Part shown: one piece after another, positions 20,519-53,376 of the stretch
Layout: each line of letters begins with the position of its first letter
How positions within the stretch are numbered: the first letter of the stretch is position 1
Assembly (NCBI GenBank): GCA_030430205.1
Contig: JAUIGE010000002.1
Coordinates: 186,001 to 250,000 of the forward strand
Length of the DNA: 64,000 nucleotides
Direction of reading: 5' to 3'
Source of the DNA: Bacteroidia bacterium
GTDB lineage: Bacteria > Bacteroidota > Bacteroidia > J057
Program-made: the position numbers and the translations under genes
The notes under the pieces: model-generated
Seen by the model: only the letters and a program-made list of their open reading frames with translations
Database searches by the model: none
What the model was told of the DNA's origin: nothing

Positions 20519-20603
20519 AGACGCAGATTCTCGCAGATGATTATGAGTTAATATGTTGCTTCTTTACATAATTTGGTCATAACAATCAGCGTAAATCAGC
20601 GTC
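20519..20603. repeat. Empty inverted-repeat unit of the ATCATAA/GCGTC family (copies C-left and C-right)
   Basis: The left arm (20519-20546, starting AGACGCAGATT) and the right arm (20574-20603, ending ATCAGCGTC) are related inverted repeats, separated by about 27 bp without coding capacity. Their layout matches the two ends of the GxxExxY element at 52792-53298 but without the gene, so the unit looks MITE-like. It lies between the DprE1-like and DksA-like genes. Confidence 0.7.
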
Positions 20604-20616
20604 AAAAACCAATCAA

Positions 20617-44015: not shown

Positions 44016-45803
44016 TTAGAATTGGCTTGTCAGGCCGATATGCAGCTTTCCACGGCTGGGCTGAAAGCCCTGATCGCCGACCCGGCCTACACCGTAGATG
44101 ATCGAAAGCAAGCCTGCGGCTTTTACATCCAGGCGCATGCCCATCCCCAATCCGATGGGATACAGCTGCTTTTCGCCTTCACTCAATATATCGCGCACAT
44201 AAGCTGCATCGGCAAAGGCGAAGATATGAGAATTGCGGTCCAGCAGCAAACGGTATTCCATGCTGAAAAAAGTATAAAAGTCTGCGAAAAACTGATTCTC
44301 GTTGAATCCCCTGATGCTTTGGCCTCCGCCTATCTGCACCTGGTCATTGCGGAAATAGCGCGATTGGCCCAGCCAATAGGTTGTGTTTCCCAGGTGAAGC
44401 GTCTGCTTTTTGAAGGTAGGGAAGAAGAGATGAAACTCTGTTTCCAGTTCGGTGGCAGTCTGCCGCGCAGGCAACTGCGCGAATACCTCCGCCTGCAGGC
44501 GGATATCAATGGGCGTGATACGCTGGCCGATGCCCGCAAATAGATCCGCAGTCGCTCCCTGCCTCGGATTGAGGCGATAGTCCAGCTTTTCATAAGCCAG
44601 ACCCAGCCCATAGGAATTGAACCTGCCGTTCAGTACAGGTGGCGGCACTTTCAGCTCGGCATAAGGCCGGGCATCCAGCAAATCCGTGCGGCGGTTTTTG
44701 TAGTTGACATAGGCCTGCAAATAGGAAGATATGGGGTAATTGGCGCGGGCCGTCAGCCTGCGGGTGAGGAAAGAGGTATCCTGCACCTGAAAATAAAAGC
44801 TGCCTTCCAGGCCAAAAGGCGTGCCCAGCACATAGGGATGCCGATAGCCCGCATCCAGGATGCGGCGGGAAGTGCTTATCTGGTTGTATTTCAATTGGAT
44901 GACCTCGCCCCAGCCCAGGGTGCTGACAAGCATGATGTCAGCCAGACCTGTCACGCGCAGGCGCTGGTCGCTGCCAGGGTTGGTCGGCGGCTGCAGGCCG
45001 ATCAGCAGGTCAAATTTGCCTGTGCGTTTGCGCCTTAGCCGGATCTCCAGTTTGCTTTTTCCATAGGCGTCAAAAGTGACCTGAGCCGCTTTTACCTGTT
45101 GGTAATAGATGCTATTGTTGAGCAGGCGGGGGATGTCCTCAATCAAAGATTGATTGTAGAGGTCGCCCGGCCGTATGCGGATCATCGCATAGAGAAAATC
45201 GGCCTGCTCTTTCGGGTTGCCCGAAAAAAGGATGCTGTCAATCCGGACCAGCTGGCCCGGCTCAAAGCGATAGCTGAGCCTCACAGCCAGAGAATCCCGC
45301 CCTATCGGGCGGTAGGCGATCGAGCTTTGCTCGATTTGGGCGAAGGGATATCCTTCATCTTCAAACAGCCGAAGGCTGTTGTGAAGGCCTGCAAGCAAGG
45401 CTTGCTGATCGAAAGCAAGCTGCTTTTGAAAGGCCAGGTCAAGGCCTGCCTTGCGCAGGTAGCTGGTGCTCAGTCCCTGGATTTCCAGGCCTTCCCATTG
45501 ATAATAATTACCCAGATGGACATAGACATGCCATGCCTCCGCTTCTCTTTGGATGCTGTCGAGCGAAGCTTCGCGAAAGCCATGCTGGCGTTTTTTCTCC
45601 ACCCAGATCTGCAATAGATGGAGCGCCGCAAGGGAATCAGCAGCTTTGAGAAGCTGTTTTTCAAGCTTCTCTGTGTCAGATGGATTTTTTGTGAAATGAA
45701 AATGTATGGAACCGGGAGGCCAGCTGGGGATGTGCTGCCCGCTGGAAGAGAGAGAGGAGAGGACACAGATCACGCAGATTATGATGGTTTTCACTGTTCT
45801 CAA
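44016..45803 (-). CDS. Omp85/BamA-TamA family outer-membrane protein
   Basis: 595 residues. The start is either a TTG at 45803 overlapping the permease stop, or a GTG at 45794 that gives a tidier signal peptide. The signal core reads TIIICVICVLSS. Residues ~30-250 contain POTRA-like repeats (LFEDEGYPFAQIEQ; VRIDSILFSGNPKEQ; GDLYNQSLIEDIPRLLNN), and ~260-595 a 16-strand Omp85 barrel with the GGGQSIRGFNENQF motif (IRGF equals VRGF) and a terminal Phe. Likely inserts or secretes proteins or lipids at the outer membrane. Third in an operon with an ABC ATPase and permease. Codons ~8-15 coincide with a copy of the interspersed repeat. Confidence 0.85.
   Translation of the reverse strand: MRTVKTIIICVICVLSSLSSSGQHIPSWPPGSIHFHFTKNPSDTEKLEKQLLKAADSLAALHLLQIWVEKKRQHGFREASLDSIQREAEAWHVYVHLGNYYQWEGLEIQGLSTSYLRKAGLDLAFQKQLAFDQQALLAGLHNSLRLFEDEGYPFAQIEQSSIAYRPIGRDSLAVRLSYRFEPGQLVRIDSILFSGNPKEQADFLYAMIRIRPGDLYNQSLIEDIPRLLNNSIYYQQVKAAQVTFDAYGKSKLEIRLRRKRTGKFDLLIGLQPPTNPGSDQRLRVTGLADIMLVSTLGWGEVIQLKYNQISTSRRILDAGYRHPYVLGTPFGLEGSFYFQVQDTSFLTRRLTARANYPISSYLQAYVNYKNRRTDLLDARPYAELKVPPPVLNGRFNSYGLGLAYEKLDYRLNPRQGATADLFAGIGQRITPIDIRLQAEVFAQLPARQTATELETEFHLFFPTFKKQTLHLGNTTYWLGQSRYFRNDQVQIGGGQSIRGFNENQFFADFYTFFSMEYRLLLDRNSHIFAFADAAYVRDILSEGEKQLYPIGLGMGMRLDVKAAGLLSIIYGVGRVGDQGFQPSRGKLHIGLTSQF
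45762..45785 (-). repeat. Interspersed ATCATAA/ATCTGCGTC-type repeat inside Omp85 signal-peptide codons (copy F)
   Basis: On the minus strand the bases read ATCATAATCTGCGTGATC then TGTGTC, matching copies A and B except for a small internal deletion. They encode IIICVICV, the hydrophobic core of the signal peptide. Confidence 0.7.
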
Positions 45804-52734: not shown

Positions 52735-52791
52735 TGGTTGTGCTATTTGATCGGAAATTTAGAAAGAAATTGGGGAAGCCGTAAGGAGGTT

Positions 52792-53298
52792 GACGCAGAT
52801 TTACGCTGATTCTTATGATTTTTTATGTTTGGGAAGATCTGTTTTGTATATGTTTGTTAATACCCGCCTTTTTATTTGAATTTCAGGTCCGAAGTTAATA
52901 AGTAAGCCAACCTCTACTTCGGTAGCTTTTAGATAATTTACAAGTTGAGTTTCGTGTTTTGAATGAAGCTTTTCAATAGATTTTAATTCGATGATTACTT
53001 TTTCTTCAACTAAAATATCAGCTGCAAAATCACCAATGATTATTTCTTCAAAATAGACCTTAATAGGTATTTGATTATCAGCTATTAAATCTATGTCTCC
53101 TAATTTTTTAAGAAGGGCTCTTTCGTACACCTTCTCCAGAAATCCATACCCCAGTTTATTATAGACATAATAGGCCTGCTGGATAATCCGTTTGGTCAAA
53201 TTCGAATATTGATAATTCTCTAACATAATTTTATCATTTCAAATTTTAGTAGCTAGCAAAACATAATCTTATCATAAAAATCAGCGTAGATCAGCGTC
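52792..53298. mobile_element. GxxExxY cassette bounded by 28-bp terminal inverted repeats
   Basis: The left end (52792-52819, beginning GACGCAGATTTACGCTGATT) and the inverted right end (53271-53298) match at 25 of 28 positions. The unit of 507 bp contains a single gene for a GxxExxY protein, whose stop codon lies inside the left repeat. No transposase is present. Related repeat ends occur at 16782, 19143, 20519-20603 and 45762. Flanking target-site duplications are not evident. Confidence 0.7.
52813..53226 (-). CDS. GxxExxY family protein (PD-(D/E)XK nuclease-like)
   Basis: 137 residues. The name motif is seen as GYGFLEKVYERAL. The PD-(D/E)XK core is visible: Asp in GDFAADILVEEKVIIELKS and the E-x-K pair in ELK. 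Family members (PF13366 type) are short nuclease-fold proteins of unknown biology, often patchily distributed. The C-terminus KHKKS ends on a TAA stop that is part of the left terminal repeat, and the ATG is 44 bp inside the right repeat. It therefore appears to travel with those repeats. No toxin, antitoxin or restriction partner adjoins it. Confidence 0.88.
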   Translation of the reverse strand: MLENYQYSNLTKRIIQQAYYVYNKLGYGFLEKVYERALLKKLGDIDLIADNQIPIKVYFEEIIIGDFAADILVEEKVIIELKSIEKLHSKHETQLVNYLKATEVEVGLLINFGPEIQIKRRVLTNIYKTDLPKHKKS

Positions 53299-53376
53299 GA
53301 CTCTTATTCAACCCTATTAGACGCAAGCAGCGTCCCCATCTAAACACTTTCCCGCGGAAAGCAGTTATACCCCATC

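Follow-up and report, generated by a model that had tools for sequence, protein, structure and literature searches.

GxxExxY genes are linked with inward-facing arrays of short repeat units in their flanks. We observed this link to be general and to extend over many phyla, though it is absent from some loci. We give a probability of about one half to the reading that gene and arms constitute one selfish element, in which the arms would be the recognition sites of the encoded nuclease and spread would be homing-like; binding, cleavage and movement are steps that we infer. The link between gene and repeats is undescribed in the full-text literature searched, outside which most subscription papers lie. 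In the accessible parts of that literature no role for GxxExxY proteins was found, nothing was found for PDDEXK_3, and typical array strings led to one unrelated paper. Dispersed short repeats have been catalogued in Geobacter bemidjiensis (PMC2996986) and heptamer repeats are known in Xanthomonas and Nostoc (PMC4692102), in both cases without a link to such a gene in the portions of text available.

The GxxExxY gene of the window and its arms

The window, i.e. the whole stretch of 64 000 nt that was analyzed, contains the following features:

52813..53226, minus strand: GxxExxY gene, 137 aa, matched by the TIGR04256 and PF13366 profiles
52933..53019, minus strand: codons of D70, E80-x-K82, Q94 and Y98, located with a 25-protein alignment
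52783..52826, plus strand: left arm, composed of end sequence, two ACGCWGAT units and TTATGAT/TTATG, and containing the stop codon of the gene
53264..53307, minus strand: right arm, an inverted version of the left arm
20519..20604, no strand: the same hairpin element without a gene, consisting of the two arms only, found by motif scan and profile

A preliminary description of this DNA had named the product a GxxExxY protein of the PD-(D/E)XK superfamily, and profile matches and catalytic residues agree with this. TIGR04256 (E 1.6e-36, 125.2 bits against a curated cut-off of 35) and PF13366 (E 4.9e-37, 127.3 bits against a cut-off of 22), the latter named for the PD-(D/E)XK superfamily, are the sole family matches of the arm-flanked gene; a tyrosine (Y1/HUH) transposase family, by which a REP/RAYT system would be recognized, is not among them. 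The alignment shows no variation at D70, E80, K82 and Y98 (25 of 25 GxxExxY proteins) and at least 90% conservation at Q94. Because of this conservation the active site of the predicted nuclease looks intact. The residues correspond to D, ExK and QxxxY, the motifs of PD-(D/E)XK nucleases of the RecB/Cas4-like kind. An AlphaFold model of the protein (pLDDT 90) has its best structural likeness to SSO0001, a Cas4 nuclease, with Z 10.0 over 110 residues and an rmsd of 5.7; the next rows reach Z 8.1, and Holliday-junction (Hjc) resolvases and lambda-type exonucleases are found among the lower-scoring likenesses. A sequence search for relatives of solved structure gave none up to E 1. Judged from modelled core fold and residues, the protein is a predicted RecB/Cas4-like member of the superfamily.

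The core of the inverted arms (52789-52819 and 53271-53301) is 31 nt long and 87% complementary, and each extended arm carries its two ACGCWGAT units ten bases apart. Direct comparison of the two strings reproduces the 28-bp inverted ends with 25 of 28 identical positions reported before, and the open reading frame indeed terminates in the left arm. We built an arm profile from 88 arms of gene-less copies, excluding the arms of the window gene, which it scores at 47.3 and 38.9, while the best null score in 10 first-order resampled windows is 13.4. The pair at 20519-20604 obtains 33.2 and 40.8, with both of its arms among the 88 used for the profile, and stands out in a plain scan too. It is the one gene-less pair above chance, and the five further half-sites that had been described in the window are not recovered. 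The next candidate, at 44270 (score 11.2), lies inside the null range and was rejected.

In the whole genome of 7.24 Mb an 18-mer pattern with at most three mismatches found 68 + 60 matches, compared to 0 + 1 for the reversed control. Around these matches 69 stretches were retrieved, not counting that of the gene itself. No second arm lay within 25-160 bp in 21 of them; the others contributed 53 rows of inverted pairs, which come from 46 stretches and were mostly cleared of duplicates of one copy. Like a MITE, the family possesses terminal inverted repeats. Its ends are AAGAGTKGACGC, the complement of which contains GCGTC, a candidate at most for the GTAG or CGTC tag at the hairpin base of REP sequences. 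For target-site duplication we compared 32 pairs of ends, one copy being entered in two registers, and found none: the mean match was 1.44 compared to 1.49 after re-pairing (sd 0.22), and 183 of 300 shuffles were as high. In the gene-less copies a two-ended polarity is only weakly apparent (log-likelihood 2892; null mean 2870, null maximum 2889) and we make no claim from it. Nine relatives gave no strict counterpart of the window site that is empty: the region upstream of their nearest desaturase, read over up to 1.5 kb, contains neither a GxxExxY gene nor an array, but the neighbour on the other side is not syntenic.

Inward-facing arrays around GxxExxY genes

For a broader view we used 172 oriented GxxExxY loci, composed of 92 from Bacteroidota whole genomes and 80 named ones, the latter chosen as those most similar to the window protein among 531 that the 25-protein alignment had found. 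One locus with an internal stop (L051) had been dropped from a set of 30. In the flank test 150 bp upstream were aligned with 150 bp downstream in inverted and direct orientation, and 3487 placements of the same geometry in the same loci served as controls; dropping 9 of the 172 loci with short flanks left 163. The 99th percentile was exceeded by 101 of the 163 loci but only 1.4% of the controls, and the 95th percentile by 134 loci compared to 7.9% of the controls; 62 loci fail the 99th percentile. The shared flank sequence is an array of ~7-bp units of about the form C-R-C-N-R-A-K (for example CACAGAG, CGCAAAG, CGCWGAT, ACAGGAT or CACGAAT) that faces the gene. Unit starts are spaced 8-11 bp apart, with 109, 92, 116 and 50 gaps of 8, 9, 10 and 11 bp, respectively. 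Of the 172 loci, 79 have an inward chain of at least three units upstream of the gene, 82 have one downstream, 57 on both sides and 104 on either side; L002 was scored as a miss, its repeat falling outside the unit expression. In outward orientation there are only 19 upstream and 16 downstream, and 2.2% of 995 controls have such a chain at either flank.

No GxxExxY gene was found in phage records; eight plasmid records and four loci on viral contigs contain one. In two Sphingomonas genomes (L136 and L142) the element apparently sits at one shared place, downstream of fabD (named by eye).

The preliminary description had proposed to tabulate how repeats and gene go together, and the association is close. 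A GxxExxY gene (E at most 0.001) is present in 152 of 296 Bacteroidota genomes. The CACAGAG triple array was detected in 48 genomes, each of which carries the gene (reversed control: 1 genome), the window-type pattern ACGCWGATNNACGCWGAT in 8 genomes, again always together with the gene (2 genomes for the reversed control), and the CGCAAAG triple in 27 genomes, 26 of them with the gene, the exception being G024; in its control columns we noticed no match. The three patterns taken together are nearly confined to gene carriers (62 of 63 genomes, Fisher p 4e-20), a count that includes some of the gene's own flanks and so partly restates the flank test. Stratified over the seven families that hold both kinds of genomes and the array, CACAGAG and gene remain associated (exact p 3e-5). 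Single genomes can have more arrays than genes: one with a single GxxExxY gene has nine CACAGAG matches on three contigs (G184), and another with two genes has array matches on four contigs (G208).

Unit type and protein lineage

Unit type tracks protein lineage across phyla, as judged from a protein tree of the 97 loci with a clear type (74 of the 172 have no type by our rule, and L119 was left out for an internal stop). Type changes 24 times on this tree compared to 44.3 times after shuffling, and 0 of 200 shuffles were as low; part of this signal comes from near-copies and vertical descent. The ACAGGAT type is found at four loci (Bacteroidota, Verrucomicrobiota and a proteobacterial MAG), which group together with a support of 86. 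The nearest relative from another phylum shares the unit type in 60 of 97 cases, compared to 34.2 when labels are shuffled within phyla (0 of 5000 as high), and reciprocal cross-phylum pairs agree in 11 of 14 cases; here phylum assignments were taken as given, many loci being MAG contigs.

Empty, occupied and decayed alleles at one intergenic site

The comparison of occupied with empty orthologous sites that the preliminary description had called for was made in another, well-sampled genus, probably Flavobacterium. The site is intergenic, between a methionine aminopeptidase (map) gene and a methyltransferase gene (names assigned by reading); two genomes with a GxxExxY gene at this place were the starting point. 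We searched 121 genomes of the genus and evaluated 44 in which both sides could be read, a non-random set of the best-scoring 30 plus others picked by hand; G346, whose contig ends there, was dropped. Among these 44 genomes, 9 are empty, 17 carry type 1, 12 carry type 2 and 6 have other contents. The empty alleles leave 0-26 bp between the genes, with neither the gene nor room for arrays. Type 1 encodes LGPGLLES proteins between arms of mostly CACAAAG/CACAGAG, and type 2 encodes LGKGHSEKVY-like proteins between arms of CACGAAT or CACAGAT, one member matching TIGR04256 with E 2.2e-37. GxxExxY sequence is present in 29 alleles. In 26 of these at least one arm has a chain of three units or more, and the other three (G411, G393 and G378) have a two-unit chain on each side. 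Several alleles appear decayed, with the limitation that errors of draft assemblies may account for broken reading frames: among type 1, three lack a long reading frame (G384, G418 and G349), two have shortened ones (G411 and G393) and one is a 234-bp copy that has lost most of the gene and kept the arms (G337); among type 2, one lacks a long reading frame (G396).

On the aminopeptidase tree, related genomes differ in state. Type 1 needs 14 changes and type 2 needs 11, numbers that were reached or undercut in 315 and 368 of 500 shuffles, respectively, which makes neither type more clustered than shuffled labels. The empty state needs 6 changes (10 of 500 shuffles this low) and shows some clustering. 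Counting starred branches only, each type must still change at least eight times and the empty state at least four times. Within a tree of 190 proteins the 15 type-1 proteins of the site form one clade (support 97, starred) and the 11 type-2 proteins another (support 84). Among the proteins compared both lineages are found at this site only, yet on the host tree their carriers are dispersed. Homing endonuclease genes are described as being faithful to a site in this way and as occurring there in empty, intact and decayed form (PMC3229294), and our observations at this site agree better with homing-type spread than with transposition at random. Much of the history nevertheless looks vertical, since identities of element and flanks correlate (0.64 and 0.89) and the element is clearly more alike than its flanks in only 1 of 186 pairs. 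This pair (G381 and G362; 98% compared to 87-91%) hints at conversion of a vacant allele, which we regard as suggestive only.

Two further alleles of the site (L351 in G387 and L352 in G431) have a type-1-like left arm followed by an insert of ~1.9 kb that contains an ATPase-like gene and a second reading frame (names by eye) and no GxxExxY sequence; an exchange of cargo or a defence gene pair is possible. A third (L353 in G373) is a 146-bp relic with a different hairpin (CAAGGTTTT...) amid apparent remnants of arms.

Other repeats in the genome of the window

This genome has two more GxxExxY genes, whose repeats differ from those of the window gene, namely ACAGGAT at L001 and TTATATGAACTT at L002, the latter family having three pattern matches. 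The second GxxExxY gene of the genome (L171, G000:C2:149800-152600) lies between cas4 (TIGR00372, 6e-22) and cas1 (TIGR03641, 2e-73, also TIGR00287), and a tandem run of ~100-bp ACAGGAT hairpins separates it from cas1. By these neighbours, L171 is a putative element inside a CRISPR adaptation operon.

The ACAGGAT hairpin is also carried as an internal passenger by a MITE of ~170 bp with the ends CATACTAC.... We examined 19 ACAGGAT copies of this genome, of which 15 show at least one MITE end and 11 show both (MITE-carrying loci are L173, L178-L181, L183, L184, L187-L190 and others of L172-L190). Ten of the 11 two-ended copies have a direct flank repeat of ~9 bp by eye, one of them with a mismatch, and L187 has none. 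As the ends belong to a separate MITE, we rejected ACAGGAT copy number as proof of spread.

Genes of the S23/four-helix-bundle family (TIGR02436; L034, L035, L036 and L291-L320) are flanked by short-period arrays as well, in inverted or direct orientation, with GAAACCC, GTCCATT, GTCATTC and CTTAG-type units. In the genome of the window we saw them by eye at 3 of 3 loci. After dropping L298 (internal stop), 16 of 32 loci, those three included, exceeded the 99th percentile of 722 controls in the flank test.

A proposed selfish element and alternative explanations

According to the reading that we put at about one half, the GxxExxY protein, a small RecB/Cas4-like PD-(D/E)XK nuclease, would recognize the arms as inverted arrays of ~7-bp units spaced 8-11 bp apart, bind at both ends and cut DNA, and repair or recombination would then copy the element into a vacant site in a homing-like manner. 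Gene-less copies, which keep the arms, probably were mobilized in trans or left by internal deletion, movement in trans being a putative step. The conservation of the unit cores, the missing target duplication, the structural likeness of the model and the intact residues together favour such an arm-reading nuclease that may provoke recombination. The weak step is the choice of the vacant site by an enzyme that reads arms: a homing enzyme is expected to recognize the vacant site rather than the arms, which counts against a selfish element. So do the array without a gene in G024, the 2 genomes that match the window-type pattern in reverse (8 match it as written), the loci that fail the flank test or have no unit type, the correlated identities of element and flanks, and the lack of a strict empty orthologue for the window. 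The preliminary description had suggested a minimal selfish element, comparable to homing-type spread or to a REP/MITE family that its protein mobilizes. It named two findings as refuting, repeats unassociated with the gene and the gene at its place without repeats in close relatives; on both counts, the second judged at the map site of another genus, our results favour it. The association of gene and arrays, the empty and occupied alleles and the fit to homing speak for the element; the part in which the protein moves the repeats stays conjectural, and the unrelated MITE ends on most ACAGGAT copies speak against it.

Tentatively, and with less confidence, we extend this to a class that has no name so far: GxxExxY genes, and probably S23 genes too, may define selfish elements with a gene of ~120-140 codons and inverted arrays of phased units that are read by their own protein, which would do without a transposase, use nuclease-directed recombination, prefer sites inside operons and seed gene-less repeats in bacteria and archaea. 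The link could jointly explain widespread GxxExxY proteins and short intergenic repeats. It also means that each GxxExxY protein can be tested on a DNA target known in advance, the arms around its gene, and the many natural pairs of protein and sequence lend themselves to studying how specificity changes in a small nuclease.

The arms might instead act in RNA. Like the intervening sequences of 23S rRNA, the element would be a passenger that forms a transcript stem around its reading frame, is trimmed by RNase III and inserts harmlessly in operons, and the protein would be a passenger or a helper of spread at the RNA level. The reading frame is enclosed by inverted arms, and S23 four-helix-bundle genes, the type of reading frame found in rRNA intervening sequences according to PMC4990558, bear similar arrays. 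Moreover, GxxExxY genes prefer co-directional gene strings: with neighbours within 500 bp and the same crude calling of reading frames for both sets, 99 of 137 loci are co-oriented with both neighbours compared to 275 of 555 other genes (p 1.5e-6), which leaves room for a role at the RNA level. Against this, the arms of gene-less copies are slightly less alike in cis than after re-pairing (0.637 compared to 0.657 in 44 rows, after orienting; the pairing analyses used 39 and 44 rows, a few copies being present in two registers), so we see no selection for pairing and rejected the arms as an RNA stem under selection. Conservation in these copies is confined to the unit cores and does not extend to spacers or the W position, which fits a putative recognition of the unit sequence better than selection on a stem. 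An excess of spacer identity in cis at 85 gene-bearing loci (0.61 compared to 0.37 across loci) was set aside, the control mixing genomes. No convincing rRNA lies near the 172 genes: five rRNA probes gave three matches of one 14-mer, each with two mismatches and one inside a GxxExxY gene; Rfam has no matches in the window. We judge this explanation unlikely, though it fares best among the alternatives.

Somewhat less probable still is a nuclease that serves or defends the host. The arrays would then be operators or targets of the enzyme itself, those without a gene would be regulatory binding sites, and patchiness would come from gene loss and transfer. The conserved catalytic residues are in line with this, and covariation of unit and protein would equally fit a DNA-binding regulator, but it does not sit well with empty and decayed alleles at the map site, decayed reading frames that keep their arms and two alternative lineages at one place. 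Least probable are ordinary REP/MITE repeats that were moved by an unrelated transposase (RAYT or IS) and caught GxxExxY genes between their copies, which the MITE ends on 15 of 19 ACAGGAT copies (11 with both, most of these with ~9-bp target duplications by eye) would support, whereas the tracking of repeat type and GxxExxY lineage across phyla, the near absence of the three array patterns from genomes without the gene and the window family's lack of target duplications speak against it.

Comparison with known systems

The selfish element that we favour shares features with four known systems. Intervening sequences of 23S rRNA with an S23 reading frame resemble it in that a small reading frame is enclosed by complementary ends inside a transcript (PMC4990558); the GxxExxY element differs by its location outside rRNA, its different protein and arms without a sign of pairing selection. 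REP/BIME sequences and their RAYT genes (PMC3733652) also combine dispersed intergenic inverted pairs, a repeat-flanked gene and gene-less copies, but here the gene is of the PD-(D/E)XK type instead of a tyrosine transposase and the arms are arrays of short units. MITEs are, like our gene-less copies, short inverted-repeat elements without genes that can be derived by internal deletion. Unlike MITEs, the gene-less copies show no target-site duplication, and we know of no transposase for them. From homing endonuclease genes, whether free-standing or in introns and inteins, the GxxExxY element is set apart by its array arms, its dispersed gene-less copies and its intergenic position without intron or intein, and recognition of the vacant site is only putative; yet both have a nuclease gene at a fixed site, distributed patchily on the host tree, and both occur as empty, intact and decayed alleles, with 9 empty sites and 29 with GxxExxY sequence among our 44 genomes.
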